A stretch of DNA of 64,000 nucleotides from Ascidia mentula (lineage: Eukaryota > Chordata > Ascidiacea > Phlebobranchia > Ascidiidae): contig OX387200.1 of assembly GCA_947561715.1 (NCBI GenBank), positions 20,772,501 to 20,836,500 on the forward strand, written 5' to 3'. Below the pieces are notes generated by a model, which worked only from the letters and a program-made list of their open reading frames with translations, was not told the DNA's origin and did no database searches. Shown in pieces: positions 22,801-53,151 of this stretch (positions are counted from its first letter, which is position 1; each line of letters opens with the position of its first letter). The position numbers and the translations under genes were made by a program.

Positions 22801-24343
22801 GATAAATTTTACATCCTGACACAGGGAATTGCAAGTTAAGATCTCCATCCTGGAGAAAACCTGTCAACGATTGTTGGATGAGGTCGCAAATGAGAAGAGG
22901 AAGCGAGATGAGCAGGAGGAGTTGATGAAGGAGGAGGTGGAATCGGTTTATGGGAAATACAACGAAAGTAAAAAATCCGCAGCCGAGCTTGAAAAGGTGA
23001 GATCCACGTTCAGTGTCGCTGTATGAGTCGTTGTGGATACTGACGTCATCCGACATGTGGCAACCTCTGTTTAATGTCAACATTTTTTTTAAAAAATTGT
23101 TCACTTCGTTTTGTGTCCATAAAAAGTTTTTGTTTTCCAAAAGTAGTTGATAAAAACACGTTGCTTTCTCATTTATATTTGTTACACATCGTTGAATGAT
23201 CAATATGACGTCATAGTATAGTTTGTGACGTGTGTGATGCGATTTGTAGGCAATGAGCGAACTCCGATCTGAGAGGAATCACAGGGAGGCGAAGGTCGCT
23301 CAACTGGAGAAAGAACTCCAGAGATCCGAGAGTAAACGGAATGAAAGTGACGTCGAGTGCAACAGAGCGAGACAGAAACTTACCGAAGCGAAACGGGAAT
23401 GTACACGGTTGCTAGACGAGGTACTATGACGTCACATGGTAAAAAATGGATATTGACCAATAGTCTTGCGCGGAAATTGGCAAAAGAACCGCGATTTGAC
23501 CTGCCGACAGTGCACGCTGTTTCGACCTGCTAAGGTCGCACCATTGTCGCTAGTGACTGTGACTCTATTGACTGGCTTGTAAACCAGTCAGGTACAGGTT
23601 TATTTACTTAGTGAAGCTGGGCAGTTAAAAGTCGATGCGCTGTGTAACCACAACTGGGTACAGGAACCACGTGGAGCGCACTACAAGTGTCGAATGTTTT
23701 CCGGTTTTTTAGCACACCTCTAGCGTTGTGCAATTTTTACACCAGGTGTCGCTGTTGCGCAAAAGCAAGAAAGAGCTTTCGGCCCAAGTGACGTCACTCA
23801 AGCTTTATGAGTTCAACGAAGCGGAACGTAAACGCATCGACTCCATGCAGGAGCAGCTCGACCACCTGTGCAAGCATATCCAGGTAAGCTTATACCGCGA
23901 AAAAAGCCAAGGAGGCTTTTATTAATCACGCGGTGACACGATAAAAAGTTTAAAAAGCTCCGCCTTTGTGTGAGAAAAGTGATGCAGATAGTGATGCTGT
24001 TTATTGTTTATGCAGACATCCGAGAATGACTACAACCAAACCATAGCCATATACAGGAACCACCTTCTTAAAGCGGCGGAGGTGAGATTATGTCAACACC
24101 TTGTTATTATGTTATTGCTGACTCTGCAAAAATGTGTAAAAATGTACGGAAAGTTTGATATTACACACTGGACTCGACGCTTTACAGAATCACTAACTTG
24201 CTGCTTAAAATGTCGCGCGCGCGCATGTTGCCTTTTTACTTAATCTGCCTTTTGTCCAGGGAGAATTAAACGACGAAGTCCTGAGCGAACTGAAAGGCAT
24301 TCTCAAACTTCTCGATCGGCCGCATTCCTCCAACAGCTCCTGA
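13810..24343 (+). CDS. RAI14/UACA: Ankyrin-repeat/coiled-coil protein, RAI14/UACA family, complete
   Basis: Vertebrate members (ankycorbin, UACA) bind actin and membranes. Coding exons: 13810-13866, 14138-14271, 14505-14593, 14823-15022, 15551-15706, 16930-17083, 17505-17581, 17954-18050, 18529-18902, 19215-19418, 20419-20646, 20848-20919, 21974-22099, 22506-22630, 22825-22996, 23250-23420, 23746-23883, 24016-24081, 24260-24343. All phases agree, giving about 907 residues. The start MKSIKAKLKK matches the MKSLKA N-terminus of the vertebrate proteins and is followed by DDWSKFDQR. About six ankyrin repeats fill residues 60-245 (ATPLHASARYGH; TALHFAAFEGH; TLLMAAAAMGR; TALILAAEAGH). A linker precedes a long coiled coil rich in E, K, Q and L. 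The C-terminal QTIAIYRNHLLKAAE matches the conserved family end. It is shorter than vertebrate members (roughly 980-1400 residues). The exon at 20419 may contain a 63-bp in-frame intron. AATAAA is at 24672-24677. Confidence 0.88.
20531..20593 (+). other. Possible 63-bp in-frame facultative intron in the RAI14/UACA-like gene
   Basis: Within the exon at 20419-20646 the sequence gtaggcag...ctccttttacgcag has a good donor, a pyrimidine tract and an AG. Its 63 bases are a multiple of three and contain no stop in frame. Retention adds 21 residues low in heptad character (GETANISFY), so splicing seems the default, but both products are open. Confidence 0.5.
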
Positions 24344-26129
24344 AGCAAAAAACAAACTATCGTTTTCCATTCCGAATCACTAAAACGCAATTTTTTTATG
24401 TCTATACATCGTCATTCTTACCAAATCCCACCCTTGCTTGCTTTGTCTCGTTTACCCGCTGCTGTGACGTCACCACATTCTGTTACGTCTTTGTGACGTA
24501 ATTTTATTCTTGAACGGTGCCGGATCCGTTTTTGTTTTGTTGTTCGATGTATTTTTTATCGACCTGTGTCGGTGCTCTATACTGCTGTGTGTGTTTTCCG
24601 ATAAGGTACGATGCGTCAGCTATATGCATATCAATACATTCTGAGCTATGACGAAATTCCCCAAGCTTTTAAATAAAGGGGTAACGGTAGTTCAGGTTGT
24701 GCTTTAAGAATTCATGTGTTTTGATTTAAAATGATGCGAATGTTTGAAAAACAATTTACCGCACGTGTTCAATATAAAATCGCAAGAGCGGTGCCTTATA
24801 GATTCGCTGGATTTATTGAAACTTATGGTGATGCGCGATCAGATCACCAATCGCGTCAGAACGGTGCAGTGGTCCCCAGAAAATCTATTTCAAGCTATTT
24901 TAATTGCAAGCAAGTTGTGCCAATAATGTGATTGAGCTGCAGGTAGATTGCCATTGTGCAGCTTTGTGTGACTCAACGACTCTGCCGACCAAACTGCCAG
25001 GCAAAGACTTTCACGTGGTGGTGAAATTCAATTACCGTCATCCGTTGGGCACCAAAAAGAATCGTATTATTGGCCACACTTACTTATACTTATATATATG
25101 ACTACCGTGACACGGGACATGACGGCACTCAAGGAAATTGCGAAATGTGTTTTTGTTGAATAAGAATGCCCAACTGTGTTTGAAAAGTCTGCTAAACATG
25201 TCCAGCATCTTATGGCTTTGACATTGTTATTCAAGATTACATGCTCCATGTATTTCCAGGCTTGGTTGACGTTTTACACAACAAACAAATATTTATTCAG
25301 CGCAGAGCAAACCTAGGTTTGGAGAAACCACTTCTGCACCAAGGCGCCGACCTTTCTTTCCCTTGTTCACGACCGAAAACTTTTTTCCTCTTACGCAGAA
25401 TACATCACAAACACCTGAAGTAGGATAAGGTGTTTAAAACCCTTTTCTAGTTATCTGTCCCGCTCAATCACCCGCAAACAGACTCAGCAATGATGTTTGC
25501 GGGCGATTAGCGGTGTCAAAAGGCACAGACTCGGACTGGTTCCTCTAACAGGCAGTTTGGATTAAGGGTTCATGCAGAGCTAGAATAGGTATATGAACCC
25601 AGTAATTGCGAAGCGGCAAAAACTGTTAGGGAGAAACTTTTTAGTAGCGGCATGGGCATGTTAACGCAAGCCCCGACTGCACGCGGGCAGTTTGGTTTGA
25701 GCAGAATTCAGAAGAATGAAGAACTCGTGATGCGTTCGCGTTCGCGGGCCTGGAAAACCCCAGTTTAACCTGACGTAGCTGGCTTAAAGACCACGCAACA
25801 TGACCACCGGAAGTAACTTGGCCTTCTTTTTAACATTTTACGATTGGTTCCGCATGTTCATTCCGAAAGTACGCCACACGTGCACAGCACATCTAGCTAG
25901 CTCAGTTACTGCTACAACATATTAATGTTGATTTCGGTTCCTATAATTTATTGCTGATGTTTTACAGACGTCTGCGGTTTATAACTTATGTCTTTTTTAT
26001 TGAGTAAACGTTACATTTTTTTATTGAGTAAATACATTGTTTTCATAATTAACCCCTTCTACTCTTTTCTGAATGCAGTGTTAAACTAACCATTAGGTTT
26101 GGTTTCAGGCTTAATGAACATAACGCAAA
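24344..26129. other. Intergenic between the RAI14/UACA-like and LCCL-A genes
   Basis: Holds the 3' UTR and polyadenylation signal (24672-24677) of the upstream gene, then about 1.4 kb with no recognised gene. It is repeated almost unchanged at 44478-46247. The last bases before the LCCL-A start contain a pyrimidine-rich 3' splice site (ag at 26107-26108). Confidence 0.5.
26108..26129 (+). promoter_or_regulatory. Candidate spliced-leader acceptor before LCCL-A
   Basis: The sequence ggtttggtttcag ends at 26108, 21 bases before the ATG, with no recognisable upstream 5' exon. Tunicates add a 16-nt spliced leader at such unpaired 3' splice sites. A normal 5' UTR intron would look the same. The same arrangement occurs at LCCL-B and LCCL-C. 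Confidence 0.35.
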
Positions 26130-29100
26130 ATGTCGAGGACGTTTATTGCGGCATTTTGGCTTCTCGGAGGATTTCTGATTAGAACCACTTCTGCTGCTGT
26201 TGAGATACGTGAGTAGCCTTGACATAGTAATTCACGGAGGTTGAGGCTTGGCTCAAGACATATTTTAAACAAACTTTGTCAAAAGTTGACTTCAAAAGTT
26301 GAAATTTTGGGATCTACCCAAGATTGCAGATGCAGGCCTAGCGATCACTGTAACTTATTTAATAACACCAAAAAAGCAGTAGCTTTTTATTACAGGATTA
26401 GCCTGGTTTATTATCAGGAATATATATTTCGCCCCATGGGCATCTTCAGTTCCTTGTTTACTGCACGGCGGTAGGCGGAAGAGCGTCTGATATTTCTGTT
26501 AACTTGGTGAAATTTCATTAACAAGGGGATCAGCGCTTATTGGTGAAACGTCGGGTAAATCTTGCAACGAAGGCGAGTTCGCTACTGTATATAAGCCGGT
26601 TAACGGTGACAGTGTTTTCACGCCCGTTCATTGCAAATATACATGGCTGTTTATCTATCACCTTATAGGGAACGTCATAAGCAGGATGTAATGTGTCAAC
26701 TCGTACAAAGACATGCGTACAGCTAGCCACTTCTTCAAAATAACCCGACTCTACCCTACCGTGCCTGTGCGTCCTGAGCGGCGTGACACAATTGTTCATG
26801 TGTATTTGTGCCTCTTTTGCTTACCCGACAGTTTCTAAGGCTTAAGGCCAGCGATAATTATATCAATGTTGAAATGAAACAAGAATTATTATCCCCATAT
26901 GTCATTGAAAAGCGAAACGATTAACCCAAAAAACATATGTGAGTGCACACGACGTGATCATAACTTGTCACAAAATGTCACAACGCTAAATGCACAATAC
27001 GAATTTGAGACTCGTAACACAAAGACCACTTGCAATTTGTCACAGCGTTTTTTGGTGGACGAAGGATTTCCAGTGGGACGCTTTTTTCATCCAATTCGGC
27101 GCAATTGCTGCTCGAGTGTTTTCAGGCGCCTTGCAGTTCAGGCGCATTTTGCAAATTTGCAGATTTGAACATTTGGTCGGTTTTTGTCCGTTTCTGAAAT
27201 TTTTTCTACAATGTAGTAAATGCGGTAGGCTATATATTTTAATCCAAATATTATTGCGTGGCGGAATTTTCGAATTTGTACACAGCAGAACGTTCGCCTG
27301 TATTTGATTGTCATTTAGCCTACAGCTTTTGCACCAACAAATGTTTTCAGTACAGTATTTTTTTGGTATTGATTGAAAACTTTTCAAATGACGAATAACG
27401 TGTTGTTGTTGCACAACAATTGCGCTCTCGAGCTGTTTTGAAGGATTGCGTCTGTGGCCCTTCTCAAATTACACTGTTCTGTTTTTTTGTGTTGCTAATC
27501 ATCTTAACGTCTAAATAAACGTTTCTCTCATTGTTATCGGAGTTTTATTATCTTCTGTGTGATTTTTATGCTTTAATTTCAGATAATGTGGATTGTAGCG
27601 AAACTCTGCTCAAGCAACGCCCGTTTTCTGATTTTATCATCAAGTGTCCGTCAAATTGTTTGGATTCGCATGCTGCTGCAAGACTTTTTCTCGACGTAAC
27701 TAAAGAATATTCAGAAATTTCAAAACTCTGTGTTGCCGCAAGGAAAAGTGGAGTTACTAGTGACCTTGTAAAAATTCGCGTGGTCAAACAACGGTTTCCA
27801 CCACCAACCCGGACATTCATTCCTATGCCATACGGTAAGTAAAAGTTGTGCTTTACTTCAGGTAAAATGTCAATCACAGGGAATCTATAGTTTTACACTG
27901 GTTATTGCAATTTGATTATGACAGATTCTCACAAAAAAAAAACAATTTGAATATTCCAGTGACCAGTACAGCCAGTATAACAACGGAAAGTCTTCCAATT
28001 ACCAGTACGAAACCATCCACCAGCCAGCCAACCACTAGTACGCAACCATCCACCAACCATTCAACTACCAGTACTCAACCATCCACAAGCCATTCATCCA
28101 CCAGTACTCAACCATCCACAAGCCATTCAACTACCAGTACTCAACCATCCACAAGCCATTCAACTACCAGTACTCAACCATCCACAAGCCATTCATCCAC
28201 CAGTACTCAACCATCCACAAGCCATTCATCCACCAGTACTCAACCATCCACAAGCCATTCATCCACCAGTACTCAACCATCCACCAGTTATTCAACTACC
28301 AGTACTCAACCATCCACAAGCCATTCATCCACCAATACGCAACCATCCACCAGTTATTTAACCACCAGTACTCAACCATCCACAAGCCATTCATCCACCA
28401 ATACGCAACCATCCACCAGTTATTTAACCACCAGTACTCAACCATCCACAAGCCATTCATCCACCAGTACTCAACCATCCACAAGCCATTCATCCACCAG
28501 TACTCAACCATCCACCAGTTATTCAACTACCAGTACTCAACCATCCACAAGCCATTCATCCACCAATACGCAACCATCCACCAGTTATTTAACCACCAGT
28601 ACTCAACCATCCACAAGCCATTCATCCACCAATACGCAACCATCCACCAGTTATTTAACCACCAGTACTCAACCATCCACAAGCCATTCATCCACCAGTA
28701 CTCAACCATCCACAAGCCATTCATCCACCAGTACTCAACCATCCACAAGCCATTCATCCACCAGTACTCAACCATCCACCAGTTATTCAACTACCAGTAC
28801 TCAACCATCCACAAGCCATTCATCCACCAATACGCAACCATCCACCAGTTATTTAACCACCAGTACTCAACCATCCACAAGCCATTCATCCACCAATACG
28901 CAACCATCCACCAGTTATTTAACCACCAGTACTCAACCATCCACAAGCCATTCATCCACCAGTACTCAACCATCCACAAGCCATTCAACCACCAGTACTC
29001 AACCATCCACAAGCCAGCCAACTACAAGCACAAAAGCAAACGGTGAAGTTACATTTTGTGCAAAGTCTATGTTACACATTGACAGTTTCACCAGCGTTAA

Positions 29101-29835
29101 AGACATAATCTGTTCACATAATTGTCAGCATCATCTTTTTGTGCAAAGTCTATGTTAAATAAATAAATGTTTGAAGGTAAAATGTTGCAACAAAGCCGTT
29201 AAATATTGTAATTGGATATACAGTAGTATTTAACGAGCAAACGTATTTTAGGGAGTGAAGTAGCAGAATTCAAGAGCCCCAAGGGTAGGTTTTTGATGTA
29301 TTTGATATGTATAACTTGGGAATTATTGATATGTCAACTAGTCAATAGAATAATCTGCCAACTGAAATTCTGGTAAACAGTCAATGGTTAAATGAGGCTT
29401 CCTTTTTTGATTTTCCATTTAAACAGAAGTCATGGGAGCTGTTCTGATTCACCAAACTTTAATGTTAAGTCGGAACTTTTTTGGTTGGTTGGTTATTGTT
29501 CTAGTTTGTAATATAAATTAATTAAATACCCTTTAAAACAATGGCCTTTCAAAAACAGTCAATGGCAGTAAAATAAAATGTTTGTTACTTATTCTATTGT
29601 TTGTTACTTATTTCCAGACAACCAATGATTTCTTTTTTTATTAGGAGCTGGATTTGCTGTGAAAATAGTTTGCGTAATTTTTGCTGTTGTTGTAATCGTC
29701 ATCATCCTTGTCCTGCTGCGTTTCTGTTACTTCAAAAAACCAATCCGCGAATTGTGGATCCACGTGAACCAAAATAAAAGGTATTGTTGTAAAGCAAATA
29801 AGAAATTTATGTCTTGCAACTTGCCTGGGTTATAG
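26130..29835 (+). CDS. LCCL-A: LCCL-domain mucin-like type I membrane protein
   Basis: Exons: 26130-26208, 27583-27834, 27960-29042, 29252-29284, 29645-29835; all junctions are phase 1, giving 545 residues. Residues 1-23 are a signal peptide (FIAAFWLLGGFLI, then TTSA). Residues 27-110 hold an LCCL-type domain with the four cysteines Cys31, Cys48, Cys52 and Cys76 (NVDC; IIKCPSNC; SKLCVAA; GV). The family is known from factor C, cochlin and LGL1 and is linked to extracellular defence and matrix. Its second half is diverged and Pro-rich. Residues 111-470 are 31 copies of an 11-residue unit (TTSTQPSTSHS), a heavily O-glycosylatable stem. A hydrophobic segment (VIFAVVVIVIILVLL) and a basic tail (FKKPIRELWIHVNQNKR) follow. 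The last codons (NLPGL) lie on a local deletion junction. Two further anchor exon pairs follow downstream. Function is not known. Confidence 0.8.
26416..26454 (-). ncRNA. Hammerhead-like folded motif in LCCL-A intron 1
   Basis: On the minus strand: AGGAA, CTGAAGA, T, hairpin GCCC/GGGC with a 3-nt loop, GAAA, six bases, TTCCT. The layout is identical to the CSK intron motif, including the single T and the six-base spacer, while both helices have different but compensating bases. An ATA triplet sits at the NUH position. Confidence 0.3.
27998..29020 (+). repeat. 33-bp coding minisatellite, 31 copies (LCCL-A mucin stem)
   Basis: The unit accagtactcaaccatccac... encodes an 11-residue Thr/Ser/Pro repeat. 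Variant units (..SYL, ..NTQ.., ..SYS) recur in blocks of 7-8 units (231-264 bp), a higher-order pattern seen about three times between 28296 and 29021. Because 33 is a multiple of three, the antisense frame is also open (Trp-rich); that is an artefact. Confidence 0.97.
29043..29167 (+). other. Alternative read-through 3' end of the LCCL-A mucin exon (secreted form)
   Basis: If the donor gtgaag at 29043 is not used, the mucin frame continues for 38 codons with three cysteines in its last third and stops at TAA 29156-29158. AATAAA signals at 29158-29163 and 29162-29167 overlap that stop. The product would lack the membrane anchor. The same layout is kept in LCCL-B (stop at 48717-48719). Confidence 0.45.
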
Positions 29836-32016
29836 GAGGCACAAAAGCAATGCGTATTGAAGCAAGTTTGTGCGGTCGGGTAACATAGTTTATGTGTGCA
29901 ACAAATTCCTTCACGAATTCAGTTGTTATACATCTGCGATCTCCCGTGTAAATCGTTTGAAGACGCTCGTCGTCTCTCGTTGTATCTTTTTATGTCTGGT
30001 TGAAAAGCTGTGTTTCTTTTAACATGACCTTCTCCCATTTAAAGTTGGTTCATTGCGACTCTACGAAATCCCTCCATAGACGACGAGCATTATGTGGTTT
30101 TTGTTTTCTTACCCTTATAGCACGGACGTAGAAATTAAAGAACCTGGGCGTAAATCAGAATGCGGTGTAAATTACCAAATTATAATTATGTCCGAAATAC
30201 TTGAAGTGTTTCTGACAAAAAATCGCTCAATGACCGACAAATGACACAAGGAAACCCAGGTGTATATTGTAGATATCAGAAATCGACTTAGTGGGACCTG
30301 GCAGGCTTGTTGTGTATTGTAGTGACATAGAACTTTTAAAACATGTATGAGAATCTCCCGACAGTCTCATGACAACAAAGACATGGTATCTAATTTTCTA
30401 GTAACATTTAAGAAACGTATTTTATGGTAAAAGTGACAAATGTGCTAACCCGTGCAGTGGGTTCTGTTGTTTTCCCCATAGGTTTGTACCCAAGTCGGCT
30501 GCCTGGCGGCAAGTTCGCTTTTTGGCATAAAATAACGCTGGGTTGCTTCCCTCATTTGTCAATAAGTAATCCCGCTGACAATATGTGGTTGGCTTTACTG
30601 TCGTGTTTTTCTGTGGAACGATTGTTTGAAAGCCAGTTTACTACCAAGTTTATTGCACTCGTTGTTTTCGGAAACCACAAATTGGTACAATACGGAAACA
30701 TGTATTTTAAACTCTAGCCGAAATTAAACTTCTGTACGTGGTGCAATTGTAAGCAGGTGAAATCACGACACACAGCAACGTGCAAAGCTGGACCAATGCC
30801 GCCAATCACCCGCCCACACCCTTTTTGACTTGATGCCTGGTATATGCGTTATTTTAACAGTGTGTGCAGAAGTGTGCAAATGCGGAACATCATAACACAC
30901 GCGTACAACATGAAGGGGTCATAGGCTGTAGTGTTAACGGTCCTTAAAGAGCGACCAGTGGAATGTTAACATTCGTTTCCAAGTAACACAAACCGCTGAA
31001 AACATTCTGGCAAACCTCCGAAATGCCTGCAAATATTTGTGATTTTTGTCTTTTCGTGATAACTTTCTATTTTGTAAATTATTAGGGCGTAACTTTGAAA
31101 CTACTGGGGCGTTACAGCCTGTGAAGCATTACGCTACAGTGTACTCAGATATGCGAATGTTTATTGACAGATTTCGTGTTTTCAGAGGTTGGATGAGTTC
31201 TCTACAGTGCTGCGTCCCGTCCGAATCTGGGAGCGGCAGGCAAGGTGGCTCGCAGCTTCGCGCGAGTTGCACAGTTGGTTGCGCAGAACCCCTAGTGACA
31301 CGCAAAACGGAGATAGGCGAGATGCTTATTGAACTCAAAGGCTAAGGCCGGGTCAACACAGAAACTGTCGCGGAAACGGTGTACGCCCGTGCGCTCACGC
31401 GCTGGCGCATTGGCTTCCACACAGAGTGAATAACTTTGAGCGCGTCCTCACTCACGCTTGACGTATTTTCGCTGCCAGTTATCACACTTGGTGCTTTGTT
31501 TTGTATACCATTCACAAACGCGCGAATTGTGCTGTTTATTATCGAAGACATTACGGCCGTGGTGAATGGTGTTAATCGTGAGAAAGTACAAAATGGCAAA
31601 AGAACATTCTGTGCAAAAACTTTGTTGTGCAGTTTTCCGGTAAAAGAGGAAAAATTACAGCAATATTAATTGTGCACGACGTGAAAAAAATTTCACATTT
31701 TTCACAAGAAACAATTGAGAAGAAGAATGTTAAATAACTAAGGATTTAAGGCGTTTATGAGTCCGTGCGTTTGCGCATTGAAATGTCTTGACATTACAAC
31801 TAACAAATTTCAACAATTAAACATACCTGGAGATGCAACTCAACAAAAAGTGTTTTTATACAAATTGTTATCTTTTCATTATTAAATGTATAATGTTGTT
31901 GAATAATCCGTGATATTATCCGTTAAATTTCTGTCGTATATCTGTTGGTTTTGGAAAATAGCTTGCGTTATTATTCTGCTGCTATTACTTAGTTTGTAAA
32001 CCAGTGCTCCGCAAGT
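29107..32016. repeat. Tandem array copy R1 (LCCL-A anchor exons plus 3' flank)
   Basis: First of three head-to-tail copies in unit A. Each starts at aatctgttcacataattgtc and ends at gtgctccgcaagt. R1 holds the first anchor exon pair (29252-29284, 29645-29835). Relative to R2 it lacks 473 bp (R2 positions 32725-33197), and the junction falls in the last codons of the tail exon. Apart from the exon pair I see no supported gene. Confidence 0.9.
31344..31634. repeat. 291-bp GC-richer block in R1 with a copy in R2 (34772-35062)
   Basis: Between the shared flanks caaaggct and ttccggtaaa, R1 and R2 carry about 290 bp (starting ggccgggtcaacacag) where R3 and unit B carry only about 75 unrelated bases. 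Composition differs from the AT-rich surroundings. I found no convincing terminal inverted repeats; it may be an old mobile-element fragment or a replacement. Confidence 0.45.
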
Positions 32017-35000
32017 AATCTGTTCACATAATTGTCAGCATCATCTTTTTGTGCAAAGTCTATGTTAAATAAATAAATGTTTGAAGTTAAAATGTTGCAA
32101 CAAAGCCGTTAAATATTGTAATTGGATATAGAGTACCGGTAGTATTTAACGAGCAAACGTATTTTAGGGAGTGAAGTAGCGGAAATCAAGAGCCCCAAGG
32201 GTAGGTTTTTGATGTATTTGATATGTATAACTTGGGAATTATTGATATGTCAACTAGTCAATAGAATAATCTGCCAACTGAAATTCTGGTAAACAGTCAA
32301 TGGTTAAATGAGGCTTCCTTTTTTGATTTTCCATTTAAACAGAAGTCATGGGAGCTGTTCTGATTCACCAAACTTTAATGTTAAGTCGGAACTTTTTTGG
32401 TTGGTTGTTTATTGTTCTAGTTTGTAACATAAATTAATTGAATACCCTTTAAAACAATGGCCTTTCAAAACATTCAATGGCATTAAAATAAGACTTCTAT
32501 ATGTTTGTGGCTTATTTCCAGACAACCAATGATTTCTTTTTTATTAGTAGCTGGATTTGCTATGGACATAGTTGGGGTAATTTTTGCTGTTGTTTATGTA
32601 ATCGTCATCACCCTTTTCCTGCTCTATTACTTCAAAAAACCAATCCGCGAATTGTGGATCCACGTGAACCAAAATAAAAGGTATTGTTGTGAAACAAATA
32701 AGAAATTTATGTCTTGCAACTTGCAATCATGTACCTAGTAAATATATAATGGGATGTACATACTCTGTAACCTTTGTTTGCTTAAATTAACCAAACTAAG
32801 TGTTATAAATCCGGCGTTTTATAAGTTTATGTTGTAGTAAAAACATGAACATAGCTTGCCTAACTTTTGTTTGCCATGAGTTGTTTGGCTGCGTTTAGAA
32901 AAGGTTGATTCTGTTTTGTTGGGCTTAAGTCTATCTGTTGATAAAATGCAATTGAAAGGCCTTATCCTGTTTAGTCAAACAAAGCGTTTTTACAAGATGT
33001 TTGGGATTAACTATTCTCCAGTCGAACTATAGGTCTTTACATGCCAAACCACCACGTTACACAGATTGCATAAAGCTCAATTTGTTACACAACGATAACC
33101 CAAAGCAGAAGAACAGGAACATACAGTATAAATTTAAACCAACTCATGTTCAAAGTAAACCAACGGTCGTTTGCCAAACATTTATCTTCGGGCAAACCTG
33201 GGTTATAGGAGGCACAAAAGCAATGTGTATTGAAGCAAGTTTGTGGGGCCGGGTAATATAGTTTATGTGTGCAACAGATTCCTTCACGAATTCAGTTGTT
33301 ATATATCTGCGATCTCCCGTGTAAATCGTTTGAAGACGCTCGTCGTCTCTCGTTGTATCTCGTTGTATGTCTAGTTGAAAAGCTGTGTTTCTTTTAACAT
33401 GACTTTCTCCCATTTCAAGTTGGTCCATTGCGACTCTACGAAATCCCTCAATAGACGACGAGCATTATGTGGTTTTTGTTTTCTTACCCTTATAGCACGG
33501 ACGTAGAAATTAAAGGGCCTGGGCGTAAATCAGAATGCGGTGTAAATTACCAAATTATAATTATTTCCGAAATACTTGAAGTGTTTCTGACAAAAAATCG
33601 CTCAATGACCGACAAATGACACAAGGAAACCCAGGTGTATATTGTAGATATCAGAAATCGACTTAGTGGGACCTGGCAGGCTTGTTGTGTATTGTAGTGA
33701 CATAGAACTTTTAAAACATGTATGAGAATCTCCCGACAGTCTTATGACAACAAAGACTTAGTATCTAATTTTCTAGTAACATTTAAGAAAATTGTTCATA
33801 CCTTTGTTTAATGAAGTTTTATTGCATATTTTGATCTTTGTTTGTAGTATTTTATGGTGAAAGTGGCAAATGTGCTAACCCGTGCAGTGGGTTCTGTTGT
33901 TTTCCCCATAGGTTTGTACCCAAGTCGGCTGCCTGACGGCGAGTTCGCTTTTTGGCATAAAAGAACGCTGGGTTGCTTCCTTCATTTGTCAATAAGTAAT
34001 CCCGCTGACAATATGTGTTGGCTTACTGTCGTGTTTTTCTGTGGAACGATTGTTTGAAAGCCAGTTTACTACCAAGTTTATTGCACTCGTTGTTTTCGGA
34101 AACCACAAATTGGTACAATACGGAAACATGTATTTTAAACTCTAGCCGAAATTAAACTTCTGTACGTGGTGCAATTGTAAGCAGGTGAAATCACGACACA
34201 CAGCAACGTGCAAAGCTGGACCAATGCCGCCAATCACCCGCCCACACCCTTTTTGACTTGATGCCTGGTATATGCGTTATTTTAACAGTGTGTGCAGAAG
34301 TGTGCAAATGCGGAACATCTTAACACACGCGTACGATATGTCGGGGTCATAGGCTGTAGTGTTAACGGTCCTTAAAGAGCGACCAGTGGATTGTTAACAT
34401 TCGTTTCCAAGTAACACAAACCGCTGAAAACATTCTGGCAAACCTCCGAAATGCCTGCAAATATTTGTGATTTTTGTCTTTTCGTGATAACTTTATATTT
34501 TGTAAAATATTAGGGCGTAACTTTGAAACTACTGGGGCGTTACAGCCTGTGAAGCATTACGCTACAGTGTACTCAGATATGCGAATGTTTATAGACAGAT
34601 TTCGTGTTTTCAGAGGTTGGATGAGTTCTCTACAGTGCTGCGTCCCGTCCGAATCTGGGAGCGGCAGGCAAGGTGGCTCGCAGCTTCGCGCGAGTTGCAC
34701 AGTTGGTTGCGCAGAACCCCTAGTGACACGCAAAACGGAGATAGACGAGATGCTTATTGAACTCAAAGGCTGAGGCCGGGTCAACACAGAAACTGTCGCG
34801 GAAACGGTGTACGCCCGTGCGCTCACGCGCTGGCGCATTGGCTTCCACACAGAGTGAATAACTTTGAGCGCGTCCTCAATCACGCTCGGCGTATTTTCGC
34901 TGCCAGTTATCACACTTGGTGCTTTGTTTTGTATACCATTCACAAACGCGCGAATTGTGCTGTTTATAACCGAAGACATTACGGCCGTGGTGAATGGTGT

Positions 35001-35443
35001 TAATCGTGAGAAAGTACAAAATGGCAAAATAACATTCTGTGCAAAAACTTTGTTGTGCAGTTTTCCGGTAAAAGAGGAAAAATTACAGCAATATTAATTG
35101 TGCACGACGTGAAAAAATTTTTACATTTTTCACAAGAAACAATTGAGAAGAAGAATGTTAAATAACTAAGGATTTAAGGCGTTTATGAGTCCGTGCGTTT
35201 GCGCATTGAATGTCTTGACATTACAACTAACAAATTTCAACAATTAAACATACCTGGAGATGCAACTCAACAAAAAGTGTTTTTATACAAATTGTTATCT
35301 TTTCATTATTAAATGTATAATGTTGTTGAATAATCCGTGATATTATCCGTTAAATTTCTGTCGTATATCTGTTGGTTTTGGAAAATAGCTTGCGTTATTA
35401 TTCTGCTGCTATTACTTAGTTTGTAAACCAGTGCTCCGCAAGT
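32017..35443. repeat. Tandem array copy R2
   Basis: 3.43-kb copy with a complete anchor exon pair (32168-32200, 32548-32738). It carries 54 bp near 33788-33846 absent from R1, R3 and unit B. Frames shared by all copies (about 33001, 33150 on the minus strand, and 33854) lack family motifs and show no coding constraint, so I do not call genes there. Confidence 0.9.
32168..32738 (+). CDS. Second membrane-anchor cassette (spare LCCL-A exon pair, copy R2)
   Basis: Exon 32168-32200 (GSEVAEIKSPK) and exon 32548-32738 keep the acceptors, the donor and the phase-1 boundaries of the LCCL-A anchor exons, so either could be spliced to the mucin exon. The second encodes a transmembrane run (VIFAVVYVIVITLFLLYYF), then KKPIRELWIHVNQNKR and a longer tail ending CNLQSCT before a stop. 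No signal peptide, LCCL or mucin exon lies between it and R1, so it is either an alternative 3' end or an unused duplicate. Confidence 0.6.
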
Positions 35444-38400
35444 AATCTGTTCACATAATTGTCAGCATCATCTTTTTGTGCAAAGTCTATGTTAAATAAA
35501 TGAAATGTTTGAAGGTAAAATGTTGCAACAAAGCCGTTAAATATTGTAATTGGATATACAGTAGTATTTAACGAGCAAACGTATTTTAGGGAGTGAAGTA
35601 GCAGAATTCAAGAGCCCCAAGGGTAGGTTTTTGATGTATTTGATATGTATAACTTGGGAATTATTGATATGTCAACTAGTCAATAGAATAATCTGCCAAC
35701 TGAAATTCTGGTAAACAGTCAATGGTTAAATGAGGCTTCCTTTTTTGATTTTCCATTTAAACAGAAGTCATGGGAGCTGTTCTGATTCACCAAACTTTAA
35801 TGTTAAGTCGGAACTTTTTTGGTTGGTTGTTTATTGTTCTAGTTTGTAACATAAATTAATTGAATACCCTTTAAAACAATGGCCTTTCAAAACATTCAAT
35901 GGCATTAAAATAAGACTTCTATATGTTTGTGGCTTATTTCCAGACAACCAATGATTTCTTTTTTATTAGTAGCTGGATTTGCTATGGACATAGTTGGGGT
36001 AATTTTTGCTGTTGTTTATGTAATCGTCATCACCCTTGTCCTGCTCTATTACTTCAAAAAACCAATCCGCGAATTGTGGATCCACGTGAACCAAAATAAA
36101 AGGTATTGTTGTGAAACAAATAAGAAATTTATGTCTTGCAACTTGCAATCATGTACCTAGTAAATATATAATGGGATGTACATACTCTGTAACCTTTGTT
36201 TGCTTAAATTAACCAAACTAAGTGTTATAAATCCGGCGTTTTATAAGTTTATGTTGTAGTAAAAACATGAACATAGCTTGCCTAACTTTTGTTTGCCATG
36301 AGTTGTTTGGCTGCGTTTAGAAAAGGTTGATTCTGTTTTGTTGGGCTTAAGTCTATCTGTTGAGAAAATGCAATTGAAAGGCCTTATCCTGTTTAGTCAA
36401 ACAAAGCGTTTTTACAAGATGTTTGGGATTAACTATTCTCCAGTCGAACTATAGGTCTTTACATGCCAAACCACCACGTTACACAGATTGCATAAAGCTC
36501 AATTTGTTACACAACGATAACCCAAAGCAGAAGAACAGGAACATACAGTATAAATTTAAACCAACTCATGTTCAAAGTAAACCAACGGTCGTTTGCCAAA
36601 CATTTATCTTCGGGCAAACCTGGGTTATAGGAGGCACAAAAGCAATGTGTATTGAAGCAAGTTTGTGGGGCCGGGTAATATAGTTTATGTGTGCAACAAA
36701 TTCCTTCACGAATTCAGTTGTTATACATGTGCGATCAACCGTGTAAATCGTTTGAAGACGCTCGTCGTCTCTCGTTGTATCTCGTTGTATGTCTAGTTGA
36801 AAAGCTGTGTTTCTTTTAACATGACTTTCTCCCATTTCAAGTTGGTCCATTGCGACTCTACGAAATCCCTCCATAGACGACGAGCATTATGTGGTTTTTG
36901 TTTTCTTACCCTTATAGCACGGACGTAGAAATTAAAGGGCCTGGGCGTAAATCAGAATGCGGTGTAAATTACCAAATTATAATTATGTCCGAAATACTTG
37001 AAGTATTTCTGACAAAAAATCGCTCAATGACCGACAAATGACACAAGGAAACCCAGGTGTATATTGTAGATATCAGAAATCGACTTAGTGGGACCTGGCA
37101 GGCTTGTTGTGTATTGTAGTGACATAGAACTTTTAAAACATGTATGAGAATCTCCCGACAGTCTCATGACAACAAAGACATGGTATCTAATTTTCTAGTA
37201 ACATTTAAGAAACGTATTTTATGGTGAAAGTGGCAAATGTGCTAACCCGTGCAGTGGGTTCTGTTGTTTTCCCCATAGGTTTGTACCCAAGTCGGCTGCC
37301 TGACGGCAAGTTCGCTTTTTGACATAAAAGAACGCTGGGTTGCTTCCCTCATTTGTCAATAAGTAATCCCGCTGACAATATGTGGTTGGCTTTACTGTCG
37401 TGTTTTTCTGTGGAACGATTGTTTGAAAGCCAGTTTACTACCAAGTTTATTGCACTCGTTGTTTGCGGAAACCATACATTGGAACAATGGGGAAACAAGT
37501 ATTTTAAACCCAAGCCGAAATTTTTGCAGGTTTATTTTTGGTATATGGGTCGTGCGCCTGACCAATGCTGCCAATGCCGCAAAACACCCGCCCAAACTGT
37601 TTTTGACTTGAGGCCTGGTAGATGCGTTATTTCAACATTGTGTGCCGTAGTGTGCAAATGCGGAACATCTTAAAACACGCGTACGATATGTCGGGGTCAT
37701 AGGCTGTAGTGTTAATGGTCCTTGAAGAGCGACCAGTGGATTGTTAACATTCGTTTCCAAGTAACACAAACCGCTGAAAACATTCTGGCAAACCTCCGAA
37801 ATGCCTGCAAATATTTGTGATTTTTGTCTTTTCCTGATGCCTTTCCCCCAAAAAAACGATTTTGTTCTATTTGGTAAAATATTAGGGCGTAACAATTGTG
37901 CACTCAGATGGGCAAATGTTTTTTGACCGATTTCGTGTTTTCAGATGTTGGATGAATACCCCAACATGCTGCTGCGCCCCGTCCGAATCTGGAAACGACA
38001 GGCAAGGTCGCTCGCGGCGTCGCGCGAGTTCACGGATTGATACCGCAGACCCTCTGTTGACATACGAAATGGAGACAGGAGGGATGCCTGTTTAACACAA
38101 AGGCTTGGAAAGGTGACGGCCAATCGGGATGCGAGAAATATTCTGAGCCATAAACTAGGATGCCGTGTTCCGGTAAAGGAAAAATTACAGCAATACCAAT
38201 TGTGCACAGCATGAAAACTTTTCATATTTTCACAAAAAACAATTGAGAAGAAGAATGTTAAACAACTAAGGATTTAAGGCGTTTATGAGTCCGTGCGTTT
38301 GCGCATTGAAATGTCTTGACATTACAACTAACAAATTTCAACAAATTTCAACAATTAAACATACCTGGAGATGCAAATCAACTCAACTGTTTTTTTCCAA

Positions 38401-38554
38401 ATTGTTATCTTCTCGGTACTAAATGTTGTAGTGATGTTGATTAATCCGTGATATTATCCGCTCAATTTCTGTCGTATATCTGTGGGTTTTGGAAAATAGC
38501 TTGCGTTATTATTCTGCTGCTATTACTTAGTTTGTAAAGCAGTGCTCCGCAAGT
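35444..38554. repeat. Tandem array copy R3
   Basis: Last copy, with an anchor exon pair (35590-35622, 35970-36160). Its 3' third from about 37480 resembles the unit B copy (50690-51765) more than R1 or R2, so R1 and R2 share a later history or conversion. Confidence 0.9.
35590..36160 (+). CDS. Third membrane-anchor cassette (spare LCCL-A exon pair, copy R3)
   Basis: Same architecture as the R2 cassette: exon 35590-35622 (GSEVAEFKSPK) and exon 35970-36160, phase 1 throughout. The tail exon differs from R2 at one residue in the membrane segment (TLVLLYYF against TLFLLYYF). Whether it is used cannot be told from sequence. Confidence 0.55.
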
Positions 38555-39755
38555 GGTGTGCCGCATGACGAATACAATTGGACCAATTGTTTCCAAAACT
38601 GTTTGAATATCCTTTTATTTTTGGCAACTTTCGGTGTTAGCTTGTATAGTTGGACAGAGCAACCGAAATCATGGTACACGAAGACCACATTTAAACGAAC
38701 ACTTCACCTGTGACGTGCACTTGGTACTTTTCCTCACCAACTTGCTCCTGTGTCTTTTACGTTAGGGGCCCGCTAATGGCGGCCCGCGCAAACAAATTAA
38801 GCGATGTGTTTGCTCTTCTTTGTTACCATATCGTTTTTATGATTTTCCCACACAAGGTTTCTGCTCACGTTTATTTCACATTTCAATTTGTCCATGCATG
38901 AAATTGTATTTGCGCTTGTCTAGCACGTGTTCACTGAAGCGTAACGGTGTTCGCTTTGACACCGACATGTGATTAAAACGTTTTGACACATTGATGGATT
39001 GTTGTTGCAACCTATACGCCAAATGTTGTTAACTTGACGCTATGGGTATGGACAATATTAATTAACCAAAGATAAGGAAATCCTATTTGATTAGTTCATT
39101 TGACACAAGGCCACACGTGAGTTCTAGCAAGTGTTGCGTTACAACAGGCACGTGTGAAACGAACCCTCTCCAAACATTTACTGGACAATTCGCTTAGAGA
39201 TCGTGTGAGAGCACAAAGACTGGTCAGTAACCGACCACCTGTCAATCAAATATAACTAAGAACATCGCGTGAATCCAAGGATTCCCTTGGCTGCAAGATT
39301 GTTTCCCCTGTGGTGTTACATTCCACACCAGTAAATCCCAGTTATTTTTTCGTCGGCACCTGTTTAAAATCAGCAACTTTTTGCCGCACCCCTCATAGCA
39401 AATATCATGTAGATAGCGTTACCACCGACATGGACTAAAAAATAAGCACGCTGCTTTTTGATGCCAAAAATAAGCACATGTCTTGTGTGAGAAAATAAGA
39501 ACATATCATGGAAATAAGCTTGGTGAGGTAACCTTGTTTGTAGCAAGCAATATATAATCAGTAAAAGTTCGCATTTTGTTGTAAACGACAATTGAATGCG
39601 TTGTCTAAAAAACAGAAACAGGACCGGTCCAAGGAAGTTCAATTCCCTGTGTTTAAAAAAGGACATTCCGATTGTGGAAAGCAAAATTGCGAGACCTAAT
39701 CTGTTTTGGTCTTCCTGGTAAACAATGGGAATCACTGTCAGTCATTATATTTAAC
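38555..39755. other. Flank beyond the array, no gene seen
   Basis: About 1.2 kb repeated at 51766-52965. No exon with splice sites or protein motif was found on either strand; the antisense frame at 39370-39735 is hydrophobic but matches nothing I recognise. Confidence 0.4.
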
Positions 39756-39822
39756 TGTGGAGCAAATGTGGCGCAAATGTGGAGCAAACGTGGAGCAAAT
39801 GTGGAGCAAATGTGGAGCAACG
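39756..39822. repeat. 11-bp minisatellite, about 6 copies (unit A)
   Basis: Unit tggagcaaatg with c/t and a/c variants, directly left of the MITE. The unit B counterpart (52966-53107) has about 13 copies. Confidence 0.9.
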
Positions 39823-39863
39823 ACGTCACGGGGAAACCCCTAAGGTTTTTCTGGCTGGTACTT

Positions 39864-40113
39864 GGTAGATGCTAAAGAACCGTCACCAGAATTAGTCGAG
39901 ATATGCCTTCTCATTAGGGTCTATGTAACATAGAAATGTTATTATAATTTAAAGAGTTATCATTTAAAGTAATATTTTAATTTCAATATATTACTAAAAA
40001 TAACAGTTGTTTGCCTTGCTTACACCTGACCATTAACATTCGCATAGATTTCTATGTGACATTGACTTAAATGTGGATCTCATATCTCGACTAATTCTGG
40101 TGACGGTTCTTTA
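39864..40113. mobile_element. MITE with about 42-bp inverted repeats, left part, split by the LINE (unit A)
   Basis: Starts ggtagatgctaaagaacc and reaches the inverted copy ending ggtgacggttcttta at 40113. The terminal repeats pair over about 42 bp. It is preceded by ctggtactt (39855-39863), the 9-bp target duplication seen on both sides in unit B. A 9-bp duplication fits Mutator-like elements. No transposase is present. The right tip is lost at the duplication junction. Confidence 0.8.
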
Positions 40114-42728
40114 TTTATTTTTTTTATTTTTATTTATTTTTTATTGAAAAAGGACGCTAAAGGCGTACAATTGAAGAAAAGGCTAAGCAAGAAGACAAAA
40201 AACAATGGTTAAACACAATGGCGAGAAATCAGCAAAAGAGAGTCAAGTTATTTGGGTATATGCTTCAAGCAGCGTAGGACCACTTTCTTCTGTAATAATT
40301 CGTTTTGCTACAGTATTTTTCACTGGCGATGTTTAGTTCTATAGATCTTGTTTTTTGCAACATATTTACAAATTCTGTTATTGTTGGTTTCTTCTTACCG
40401 TATTTGCATCGATAAATCACAAATCTGGCACAAAGAAGAGCGCAATTTAAAAAGCATTCAAAAATATTGTTATTTTCATGTCTACCAAACAGTAAATGCG
40501 CACGAGAAAAATACAAAGGTACACGAAGTTTGGCGCTTAGCCAACTGCATACATTTTCCCAGTAATGTGCTGCAATAGGGCAATTTACAAATAAATGTAA
40601 AACCGTTTCCTCGGCATTTTCGCAAAAGACACATGAACCTGTTTCTATAAACTTTAGATCTTTTAACTTTTTATTGGTCACAATGGCCCTGAGATTTAGC
40701 TTAATTTGAAAACTTATTAATTTAGTTTCCACTGTAGCTTGCGGTATATTTTTATATATTTGCCTCCAAGGTACTCTGTCATTGACTAAGGATTCCCATA
40801 CAGCTTGTGCTTTGGGTTGAATTATATTGGCGGTTTGAAGCCACGAATACAAAGCCTTTGTGCTCTCGCAATGTGTCAAGATATTTCTTAAAACGTCTGT
40901 TAGGTTTTTATGTGAAGGCACTGGTCCATAGTCCCACTCCTCGGGTATGCATGCTATAAGCTTGAGAAACTTAGTGAAATCTGTTGTACTTGGGTCAAGA
41001 CTATATTTTGTAGTAAGTGCATCATATTTCAAATATTCCCCATTGTGGTCTAATAGATCGTTGTGGGCCATTACTCCCGCGTCTATAAATTTTTCGAAAT
41101 AGAAGGGTTTACTGCGTTTTTTTAATGCTTTTTTAAGCCAGAGAGGTCTGTTGCATGCGTGGTCGGGGAGTTTGAAGACCCGTTATATTTTTTGTTTCCT
41201 CGCAAAATAATTCCCTGAGCGCTTTAAATTTTAGAGCCAACATATAGTTCTCAATATGTATCATGCCCGCCCCGCCGTTATCCAAACTTTTACACAGGGT
41301 AACTCTTTTAATTCGTTCCCAAGATGAGCCCAATATAAATTTAAATAAGGCTCGGTCGATTTTACAAATGCACTTTTTTGGGATGATCACTGGTAGGACG
41401 CACAGTTTATATGTCAATAGAGGTATAATGAGACTCTTAGCTATTGTTATTTTGCCGAGAAGGGTTAATCCTCTGGTCGCCCAAGGTTCATTACTATGTT
41501 CGCTTTTTTTAGTGCCGGAGAAAAGTTTAGTTCGATAAGTTCCTCATCTTTGTATTTTGTGAGTGGTATTATAACCCCAAGGTACTTAATAGATTCCGAG
41601 GGCCATTGAAGACCATCCTTTTGAAATGGCTTGTGATGGTTTGAGCGATTTGGACCTATGAAAAAGGCACAGGACTTTTCCATATTTACTTTGCAACCTG
41701 TCATTTCGCCGAACTCCTCTAAAATTTGAAAGATTTTAGTGAAATCCGCATCAGAACCTTTAGTAAAAACGAATGTATCATCCGCAAATAAGGATGTTTT
41801 GTATTCTTTGTCGTTTAGTCGTATGCCTTCAAAATCACCCTGTCTTAAAGCGCAGTTGCTAGGCATTCGATGCAGAGCACGAATAACGTTGGGGAGAGTG
41901 GGTCTCCCTGTCTGACGCCACGTTCTATGTCAAAAGATTCTGAGAGAAAGTTGCTATTGGTGACTCTCGCAGAGGCATTTTGGTAAAGGCATTTAATGAG
42001 ATTGACAAATCTGACTCCGAACCCGAACGCAGAGAGAGTTGCGTAAATAAATTCCCACCTTAAAGTGTCAAAGGCTTTATAAATATCTAAAGACAGTACT
42101 GCCCCAGGAACGCGGTAATGGTCCGTACTGTCAATCATGTCGAACAGCAACCGGATATTTGTTCCTATATAGCGGTGTGGAAGAAAGCCGTTTTGGTCGT
42201 TGGATACGATATCGTCGATAACACCGCGTATTCTTGTGTTAATCACTTTGGCGGCGATCTTATAGTCAACGTTTAGCAGGGTTATTGGGCGATAATTTTG
42301 GGCCTGTGAAAGGTCTTTCCCTGGTTTGGGAATTAGGGTGATGAGTCCTTCAGATTGGCTCGCGGACATTTTACCGGTTTCAACCGTAAACTTCCATGCA
42401 TTTAGGTAGACCAGTTTGATATCATCCCAAAATATCTTGTAAAATTCAACCGGGAAGCCATCCAAGCCTGGCGATTTGTTTTTTTGCATGGTTTTAATCG
42501 CATTTAAAAATTCCGCTTCCGTTGTCTCCTCATTCAGTTTTTCCGCTTGTTCGCAAGTGATTTTTGGCAGCGCGAGCTTTTCTAGGTTACTTGTCAGCAG
42601 GGTGTTTGGAGTCGAACATGGTGGTTTCTCATACAGGTGGGTATAAAAGCCAGCTAGGTTATTCAGTATTAATTTATGGTCAGTGGATATAGTCCCGTTG
42701 ATCAATAATCTAGAGATGGTTTTTTTTG
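40114..42728 (-). mobile_element. LINE of the L1/Tx1 group, 5' truncated (unit A)
   Basis: Read on the minus strand. It opens inside ORF2 just before the reverse transcriptase. The RT motifs are NYRPITLLNVDYKI, GFLPHRYI, LSLDIYKAFD, GVRQGDPLSPTLF and FADDTF. A C-terminal region follows with a CVFCENAEETVLHLFVNC zinc-knuckle-like motif, typical of L1/Tx1 ORF2. The tail is A-rich (TTTATTTATTTT on the + strand at 40113-40145). The frame shifts near 41850 and again between 41465 and 41071, so ORF2 is not intact. The 5' end at 42728 is the duplication boundary, not the natural end. Confidence 0.9.
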
Positions 42729-43142
42729 ACCACCCTCATTCTGGCAGAATTCTGGCAGAATAATTTTGCAAATTTGCCACATTTTCAAAGGAACAACAGG
42801 CATTTACTCAAAAATTGGTTTCCTTTGGATTAGAATCAAATTACAGGGATGAGCAAGCAGTTCAAACCTCAAAAAACACTTAAACAATTTTTTTCGCAGC
42901 TGTATCAATCAAAAAAATCGCGAATTAAAAAAATCGCCTGGTTTTGCGATTCAGCATAATGGCGGCATGCAAAAAACTTCCCTAATACAAAGAATTCTGC
43001 TCGGCGTTCTTGCAATAGGTGCCAATATTGACCAATATCACGAGAACGGAAATTTAATGCTCTACCACATGCAATTAACAAATTTGAAATTAAGGTGCCG
43101 GATGACCTTCAAATCGCCCATCGAAGACGACCCGCTTTTTGC
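42729..43142. other. Unique 414-bp spacer between duplication units
   Basis: Lies between the truncated LINE of unit A and the start of unit B and is found nowhere else in the window. It contains a short direct repeat (attctggcaga twice, 42738-42765). It holds no recognised gene. It may be filler at a duplication junction or the seam between two haplotypes. Confidence 0.6.
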
Positions 43143-43383
43143 GTTCAGTGTCGCTGTATGAGTCGTTGTGGATACTGACGTCATTCGACATGTGGCAACC
43201 TCTGTCAAAATTTAACTATTTCTATGAAAAATTGTTCACTTCGTTTTGTGACCATAAAAAGTTTTTGTTTTCTAAAGTTGTTGATAAAAACTCGTTGCTT
43301 TCTCATTTATATTTGTTACACATCGTTGAATGATCAATATGACGTCATAGTATACTTTGTGACGTGTGTGATGCGATTTGTAG

Positions 43384-44477
43384 GCAATGAGCGAACTCCG
43401 ATCTGAGAGGAATCACAGGGAGGCGAAGGTCGCTCAACTGGAGAAAGAACTCCAGAGATCCGAGAGTAAACGGAATGAAAGTGACGTCGAGTGCAACAGA
43501 GCGAGACAGAAACTTACCGAAGCGAAACGGGAATGTACACGGTTGCTAGACGAGGTACTATGACGTCACATGGTAAAAAATGGATATTGACCAATAGTCT
43601 TGCGCGGAAATTGGCAAAAGAACCGCGATTTGACCTGCCGACAGTGCACGCTGTTTCGACCTGCTAAGGTCGCACCATTGTCGCTAGTGACTGTGACTCT
43701 ATTGACTGGCTTGTAAACCAGTCAGGTACAGGTTTATTTACTTAGTGAAGCTGGGCAGTTAAAAGTCGATGCGCTGTGTAACCACAACTGGGTACAGGAA
43801 CCACGTGGAGCGCACTACAAGTGTCGAATGTTTTCCGGTTTTTTAGCACACCTCTAGCGTTGTGCAATTTTTGCGCCAGGTGTCGCTGTTGCGCAAAAGC
43901 AAGAAAGAGCTTTCGGCCCAAGTGACGTCACTCAAGCTTTATGAGTTCAACGAAGCGGAACGTAAACGCATCGACTCCATGCAGGAGCAGCTCGACCACC
44001 TGTGCAAGCATATCCAGGTAAGCTTATACCGCGAAAAAAGCCAAGGAGGCTTTTATTAATCACGCGGTGACACGATAAAAAGTTTAAAAAGCTCCGCCTT
44101 TGTGTGAGAAAAGTGATGCAGATAGTGATGCTGTTTATTGTTTATGCAGACATCCGAGAATGACTACAACCAAACCATAGCCATATACAGGAACCACCTT
44201 CTTAAAGCGGCAGAGGTGAGATTATGTCAACACCTTGTTATTATGTTATTGCTGACTATGCAAAAATGTGTAAAAATGTACGGAAAGTTTGATATTACAC
44301 ACTGGACTCGACGCTTTACAGAATCACTAACTTGCTGCTTAAAATGTCGCGCGCGCGCATGTTGCCTTTTTACTTAATCTGCCTTTTGTCCAGGGAGAAT
44401 TAAACGACGAAGTCCTGAGCGAACTGAAAGGAATTCTCAAACTTCTCGATCGGCCGCATTCCTCCAACAGCTCCTGA
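43384..44477 (+). pseudogene. Duplicated 3' end of the RAI14/UACA-like gene (4 exons)
   Basis: Exons 43384-43554, 43880-44017, 44150-44215 and 44394-44477 correspond to the last four exons of the full gene with all splice sites, frame and stop kept. Exonic changes seen are silent (gcg to gca in the AAE codons; ggc to gga in LKGIL). No promoter, start or ankyrin exons accompany them, so it is a gene fragment unless the whole unit is a mis-joined allele. AATAAA is at 44806-44811. Confidence 0.85.
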
Positions 44478-46247
44478 AGCAAAAAACAAACTATCGTTTT
44501 CCATTCCGAATCACTAAAACGCAATTTTTTTATGTCTATACATCGTCATTCTTACCAAATCCCACCCTTGCTTGCTTTGTCTCGTTTACCCGCTGCTGTG
44601 ACGTCACCACATTCTGTTACGTCTTTGTGACGTAATTTTATTCTTGAACGGTGCCGGATCCGTTTTTGTTTTGTTGTTCGATGTATTTTTTATCGACCTG
44701 TGTCGGTGCTCTATACTGCTGTGTGTGTTTTCCGATAAGGTACGATGCGTCAGCTATATGCATATCAATACATTCTGAGCTATGACGAAATTCCCCAAGC
44801 TTTTAAATAAAGGGGTAACGGTAGTTCAGGTTGTGCTTTAAGAATTCATGTGTTTTGATTTAAAATGATGCGAATGTTTGAAAAACAATTTACCGCACGT
44901 GTTCAATATAAAATCGCAAGAGCGGTGCCTTATAGATTCGCTGGATTTATTGAAACTTATGGTGATGCGCGATCAGATCACCAATCGCGTCAGAACGGTG
45001 CAGTGGTCCCCAGAAAATCTATTTCAAGCTATTTTAATTGCAAGCAAGTTGTGCCAATAATGTGATTGAGCTGCAGGTAGATTGCCATTGTGCAGCTTTG
45101 TGTGACTCAACGACTCTGCCGACCAAACGGCCAGGCAAAGACTTTCACTTGGTGGTGAAATTCAATCACCGTCATCCGTTGGGCACCAAAAAGAATCGTA
45201 TTATTGGCCACACTTACTTATACTTATATATATGACTACCGTGACACGGGACCTGACGGCACTCAAGGAAATTGCGAAATGTGTTTTTGTTGAATAAGAA
45301 TGCCCAACTGTGTTTGAAAAGTCTGCTAAACATGTCCAGCATCTTATGGCTTTGACATTGTTATTCAAGATTACATGCTCCATGTATTTCCAGGCTTGGT
45401 TGACGTTTTACACAACAAACAAATATTTATTCAGCGCAGAGCAAACCTAGGTTTGGAGAAACCACTTCTGCACCAAGGCGCCGACCTTTCTTTCCCTTGT
45501 TCACGACCGAAAACTTTTTTCCTCTTACGCAGAATACATCACAAACACCTGAAGTAGGATAAGGTGTTTAAAACCCTTTTCTAGTTATCTGTCCCGCTCA
45601 ATCACCCGCAAACAGACTCAGCAATGATGTTTGCGGGCGATTAGCGGTGTCAAAAGGCACAGACTCGGACTGGTTCCTCTAACAGGCTGCTTGGATTAAG
45701 GGTTCATGCAGAGCTAGAATAGGTTAATGAACCCAGTAATTGCGAAGCGGCAAAAAACTGTTAGGGAGAAAGTTTTCAGTAGCGGCATGGGCATGTTAAC
45801 GCAGGCCCCGACTGCACGCGGGCAGTTTGGTTTGAGCAGAATTCAGAAGAATGAAGAACCCGTGATGCGTTCGCGGGCCTGGAAAATCCCAGTTTAACCT
45901 GACGTAGACCACGCAACATGACCACCGAAAGTAACTTGGCCTTCTTTTTAACTTTTTATGATTGGTTCCGCATGTTCATTCCGAAAGTACACCACACGTG
46001 CACAGCACATCTAGCTAGCTCAGTTACTGCTACAACATATTAATGTTGATTTCGGTTCCTATAATTTATTGCTGATGTTTTACAGACGTCTGCGGTTTAT
46101 AACTTATGTCTTTTTTATTGAGTAAACGTTACACTTTTTTATTGAGTAAATACATTGTTTTCATAATTAACCCCTTCTACTCTTTTCTGAATGCAGTGTT
46201 AAACTAACCATTAGGTTTGGTTTCAGGCTTAATGAACATAACGCAAA
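44478..46247. other. Intergenic, copy of 24344-26129
   Basis: Carries the copied 3' UTR and the 5' flank of LCCL-B, with several small indels near 45700-45920 relative to unit A. No gene was seen. The acceptor before the LCCL-B start is kept. Confidence 0.5.
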
Positions 46248-53107: not shown

Positions 53108-53151
53108 ACGACGTCACGGGGAAACCCCTAAGGTTTTTCTGGCTGGTACTT

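Follow-up and report, generated by a model that had tools for sequence, protein, structure and literature searches.

Vertebrate proteins with an LCCL domain include DCBLD, CRISPLD and cochlin. Allorecognition loci are known from the colonial tunicate Botryllus (fester/FuHC) and from hydroids (Alr). For the sea urchin Sp185/333 family, 15 predicted genes are described in three clusters of similar copies with repeats, and recombination, conversion, duplication and deletion are proposed (PMC5103432). In the titles and opening lines of abstracts on LCCL in ascidians and tunicates, an LCCL-mucin-transmembrane receptor was not found. The locus described here lies in the window, the whole stretch of 64,000 nucleotides of Ascidia mentula that was analysed, and carries a tandemly duplicated gene predicted to encode such a receptor (Table 1). 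The differences between its two LCCL exons are best, and probably correctly, explained by a recombination mosaic (unequal crossing-over or conversion) in a young tandem array combined with weak protein constraint.

Table 1. Positions of the duplication, its predicted exons and cassettes, the divergence islands and the neighbouring gene in the window.
Feature	Positions	Strand	Remarks
Copy 1 of tandem duplication	23007..42728	+	RAI14-like 3' exons, LCCL receptor gene with three 3' cassettes, part of LINE-like element; self-alignment of window
Divergence island 1	23050..23221	.	16 substitutions; outside predicted exons, left edge of duplication
Divergence island 2	25554..25873	.	13 substitutions; outside predicted exons, upstream of exon 1
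Copy 1 exon 1, signal peptide MSRTFIAAFWLLGGFLIRTTSAAVEI	26130..26208	+	predicted; one silent difference from copy 2
Copy 1 LCCL exon	27583..27834	+	Pfam PF03815 23.6 bits, cut-off 22.6
Copy 1 mucin-like Ser/Thr exon	27960..29042	+	33-bp repeat, 30.8 copies; ends hand-placed from splice signals
Cassette U1, copy 1	29252..31345	+	predicted; alpha tail
U1 exons	small 29252-29284, transmembrane 29645-29780, tail 31186-31345		predicted
Cassette U2, copy 1	32168..34773	+	predicted; alpha tail
U2 exons	small 32168-32200, transmembrane 32548-32680, tail 34614-34773		predicted
Cassette U3, copy 1	35590..38095	+	predicted; beta tail
U3 exons	small 35590-35622, transmembrane 35970-36102, tail 37945-38095		predicted
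Copy 2 of tandem duplication	43142..54973	+	content like copy 1, one 3' cassette; self-alignment
Copy 2 exon 1, signal peptide	46248..46326	+	predicted; first-exon scan
Copy 2 LCCL exon (comparison sequence)	47702..47956	+	Pfam PF03815 24.5 bits
Copy 2 mucin-like exon	48082..48603	+	33-bp repeat, 13.8 copies
Cassette V, copy 2	48813..51314	+	predicted; beta tail, identical to U3
V exons	small 48813-48845, transmembrane 49194-49311, tail 51164-51314		predicted
Third LCCL-Ser/Thr-transmembrane gene	57490..59288	+	exons hand-placed; LCCL domain split by an intron

Self-alignment of the window gave three blocks shared by the two copies, with identities of 98.5%, 96.7% and 98.8%. Base differences were patchy, at 0.7-1.4% by block: 53 of 5,066 aligned sites differed in block 1 and 80 of 5,653 in block 2, and block 3 was 562 bp long. 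The region around the LCCL exons was compared by aligning 22901-29900 with 43036-49430. Reverse-transcriptase frames on the minus strand (40265-42735 and 53553-55865), named LINE-like by eye, lie where each copy ends on the right, and the element of copy 1 is apparently cut at the duplication breakpoint. An 11-bp minisatellite, TGTGGAGCAAA, is present in 5.9 copies in copy 1 (39756-39820) and 12.9 in copy 2 (52967-53108).

The LCCL exon is predicted to belong to a gene for a membrane-anchored surface protein, with exons for a signal peptide, LCCL domain, mucin-like stalk, a short exon, a transmembrane segment and a tail, in that order. A scan for first exons, using an ATG, a hydrophobic core and a phase-1 donor as criteria, returned one candidate per copy. 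The predicted exons are open in both gene copies. Both indels between the copies in the counted exons (3 and 15 bp) are multiples of 3, compared with 1 of 16 outside the exons of the gene, the LINE included, so the reading frames look maintained. Both genes are presumably expressed. Past the mucin exon the frame continues through a short Cys-containing stretch (48604-48719 in copy 2, 29043-29158 in copy 1) and then reaches a stop. By eye this stretch looks like the beginning of a further LCCL domain; it may be what is left of an exon, or may give rise to a secreted form.

Both LCCL exons lie above the curated Pfam PF03815 cut-off, as marginal and partial matches covering positions 2-70 (copy 1) and 2-60 (copy 2) of the 96 in the profile. 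AlphaFold models of the two exons (mean pLDDT 52.8, pTM 0.33) were too poor to place the changes on a shared surface.

Alignment of the two LCCL exons revealed seven substitutions, at positions 27585, 27691, 27697, 27704, 27741, 27787 and 27824 of copy 1, and one in-frame CCA codon that is extra in copy 2, exactly as the earlier note had counted. Its six replacements were all confirmed (N28D, L63R, V65A, K67N, R80W and K95I), and the residue numbers are consistent with the 26-residue exon 1 of the gene model; the single silent change is CCT/CCC. The surrounding sequence also proved as uniform as claimed. Against a claim of about 100 bp of identical upstream intron, a stretch of 110 bp (27475-27584) is identical between the copies, with a few differences further upstream in the same intron. 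Downstream, 266 bp (27825-28090) are identical and take in the whole 125-bp intron. The first coding difference beyond this tract, at 28091 in the mucin exon, is a replacement (H>N). The RAI14-like exons, delimited by hand at 23250-23420, 23746-23883, 24018-24080 and from near 24261, contain two base differences (24078 and 24298), both silent in open frames, which agrees with the claim that these RAI14/UACA-like exons differ only silently.

The ratio of replacement to silent changes was examined using the Nei-Gojobori method, which gave 192 replacement sites with six changes and 60 silent sites with one. For these two sequences dN/dS (omega) was 1.9, with an exact 95% interval of 0.23-86 (Fisher p = 0.47). 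Simulated neutral mutation with a 1-3-fold transition weight produced at least six replacements among seven changes in 37-46% of trials without a stop, and the corresponding binomial probability under neutrality was 0.475, so that the 6:1 ratio has a p of 0.37-0.48 against neutrality. At a neutral replacement share of 0.76, even seven replacements out of seven would give p = 0.15, and 12 of 12 would be needed for p < 0.05. Because seven changes are too few and the power of the test is almost nil, the exon pair cannot show selection either way. In a test of such low power dN/dS was not significantly above 1, and the pattern of diversifying selection that the earlier note saw in this exon is unsupported, since a 6:1 ratio is as expected at neutrality and the omega interval is so wide.

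The density of changes in the exon was considered separately. The LCCL exon carries 7 changes in 252 sites and the quiet parts of the block 17 in 4,297 (Fisher p = 0.0002); two quiet stretches of block 1 have 9/2,332 and 8/1,709, making the exon six to seven times more changed than these, and its flanks have 0/108 and 0/256. Block 1 also contains denser islands, with 16/241 at the left edge and 13/303 around 25554-25873, both exceeding the LCCL exon. When the changes of block 1 were shuffled uniformly, a 240-bp window with at least seven changes arose in 64% of shuffles, and a densest-window p of 0.016 was obtained for the LCCL exon after the two other islands had been set aside. Overlapping 240-bp windows with at least seven changes, those on the LCCL exon included, make up 6.7% of block 1, 18.6% of block 2 and none of block 3. 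A slide test that keeps the clustering, in which the changes of blocks 1 and 2 were shifted along relative to the LCCL exon, gave p = 0.15. The LCCL exon is conspicuous beside its immediate flanks, but ordinary for a duplication as patchy as this one. In the counted coding exons taken as a set, 23 of 764 sites were changed against 110 of 9,955 elsewhere, with a plain Fisher p of 6e-5 that ignores clustering and a p of 0.055 in the slide test; the mucin exon was counted only to 28090, and the sites elsewhere take in the RAI14-like exons as well as the LINE-like part.

The two islands within the gene both lie on exons, the LCCL and the transmembrane exon, with nearly identical intron adjoining. 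To this extent the observations favour the earlier note, but the divergence is not limited to a ligand-facing coding exon, since two islands fall outside predicted exons and one on the transmembrane exon. The latter (15/118) is denser than the LCCL exon. Its values were pS 0.20 and pN 0.13 between U3 and V (p = 0.37), and pS 0.38 and pN 0.15 between U1 and V (p = 0.03). Because its silent sites have diverged at least as much as its replacement sites, this island needs no selection on amino acids, and the islands can be older tracts instead of products of accelerated amino-acid change.

The 3' part of the gene consists of transmembrane/tail cassettes, three in copy 1 (U1, U2 and U3) and one in copy 2 (V), all of them open. 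The tail is of an alpha type in U1 and U2 and of a beta type in U3 and V; the U3 and V tails are identical across the 191 bp compared, while alpha and beta tails differ with pN 0.26 and pS 0.23 (p = 0.83). U1, U2 and U3 are possible alternative 3' ends. Four-way alignment of the cassettes revealed conflicting groupings along the copies: 12 sites in the front part group U1 with V and U2 with U3, 182 sites in the back part group U1 with U2 and U3 with V, and one site is odd. The break falls between about 50513 and 50685 in copy 2 coordinates. Three switches of grouping were seen against 24 expected, and none of 5000 shuffles reached three. A further 19 U1+V/U2+U3 sites (48622-48666) were left out, since the junction sequences with which U2 and U3 start in this interval are unrelated; keeping them (31 such sites) left the result unchanged. 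The change of grouping part-way along the cassettes indicates recombination in the array, and copy 2 may be what remained after unequal exchange, or a deletion, involving a U1-like and a U3-like cassette.

The genome (195.8 Mb in 79 contigs) has two GH6 matches over the Pfam cut-off, on contigs C71 and C52, which point to a tunicate, as GH6 is not known from other animals. It was searched for further copies of the gene. Besides the two copies with their cassettes there was one match, a neighbour at 57.5-59.3 kb with 40% identity; among the best candidates of the DNA and protein searches in the 79 contigs, no donor of the LCCL tract was found beyond the two copies. The suggestion in the earlier note that variation had been imported by conversion receives support of a general kind from the switch in cassette grouping and from the islands scattered through a near-identical duplication, but not from a donor for the LCCL exon itself. 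The neighbour, a third gene beside the duplication, is the nearest relative found, being 38-40% identical to the duplicated gene. Its LCCL domain scores 64 bits to PF03815 and matches cochlin in the PDB (LCCL structure 1jbi) with an E of 1.9e-6. At 38-40% identity it was too distant to serve as an outgroup for polarising the LCCL changes; N28 may be ancestral, as the third gene likewise has N. Large tandem LCCL arrays occur elsewhere in the assembly, at C72:5124980-5182581, C69:1890517-1912016 and C67:1649638-1657835, and account for most of the matches listed; the array on C69 is regularly spaced.

The locus is a mosaic of identical and divergent tracts with conflicting cassette groupings, and the 6:1 ratio in the LCCL exon is compatible with neutrality. 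In the mosaic explanation, the tandem array would be young, recombining and for the most part homogeneous, and the exon would be among several islands in it where divergence is older. Unequal crossing-over, gene conversion or both, between tandem or allelic copies, would leave long identical tracts together with leftover or exchanged divergent ones, and under weak protein constraint replacements inside a divergent tract would accrue near the neutral share of roughly three in four, a share at which a 6:1 split is expected. We infer that the LCCL tract arose by exchange and not by chance clustering. Relaxed constraint or the incipient loss of one copy, with replacements at the neutral rate and no special exchange, accounts for the replacement share, for tails with pN about equal to pS, and for LCCL scores barely over the Pfam cut-off with the final quarter to third of the profile unmatched. 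It is nevertheless unlikely, as both copies have open predicted exons, the coding indels keep frame, and the six- to seven-fold excess of the LCCL exon over the quiet stretches is left unexplained. The adjoining near-identical copies could also reflect an assembly error in which two haplotypes were falsely placed in tandem, a recognised kind of artefact; here the window is free of N and the flanks of copy 1 and copy 2 are unrelated by eye at both ends, which makes such an error extremely improbable. The same patchy divergence, and the variation of the array in cassette number, would follow if the copies derived from two haplotypes by unequal crossing-over between divergent alleles, their differences being old allelic polymorphism, but among the best candidates in the 79 contigs neither a further copy nor an alternate haplotype was found and this origin is considered very unlikely.

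At MHC-type loci, selection acts on the recognition domain while recombination keeps the introns alike. Diversifying or balancing selection of this kind on the LCCL domain, driven by self, pathogen or gamete ligands, would produce an island within unchanged flanks that is replacement-rich in direction, with more change at coding than at other sites, all of which are seen here. The excess, however, comes from two sequences and is non-significant, there are denser islands outside predicted exons, and the transmembrane island has diverged at silent sites too; such selection is accordingly regarded as quite unlikely. Several observations count against the mosaic reading. Both intragenic islands are on exons and coding sites are more changed, which is the direction that selection would give, and the replacement at 28091, outside the coding count, is a further point. 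The switch of grouping was seen in the cassettes, and the LCCL exon, present in two copies, yielded no exchange tract of its own. The exon position of the two intragenic islands still leans towards the interpretation of the earlier note. A more elaborate arrangement, to which we give little credence, is a compact, rapidly recombining recognition locus in which three tandem transmembrane/tail cassettes, of two tail types, would be alternative partners for a single LCCL-mucin ectodomain, while the LCCL and transmembrane exons diversify and the introns are homogenised.

The mosaic reading illustrates that a few substitutions in young tandem copies can mimic selection where divergence is patchy. 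In ascidians, structural and allelic variation could sensibly be sought at this locus, where a predicted LCCL-mucin receptor is duplicated and its transmembrane/tail cassettes vary in number. With LCCL proteins (PF03815; cochlin 1jbi) the duplicated gene shares a domain that passes the cut-off in both copies, and it differs in matching only part of the profile. Like fester/FuHC and Alr, the locus would combine an extracellular domain and a transmembrane segment with an exon that differs between copies. Fester/FuHC are tunicate loci, as is this one; histocompatibility is a feature of those loci. Sp185/333 has 15 predicted genes, in contrast to the two gene copies and a distant neighbour here; clustered similar copies, repeats and proposed recombination are features of that family and of this locus alike (PMC5103432).
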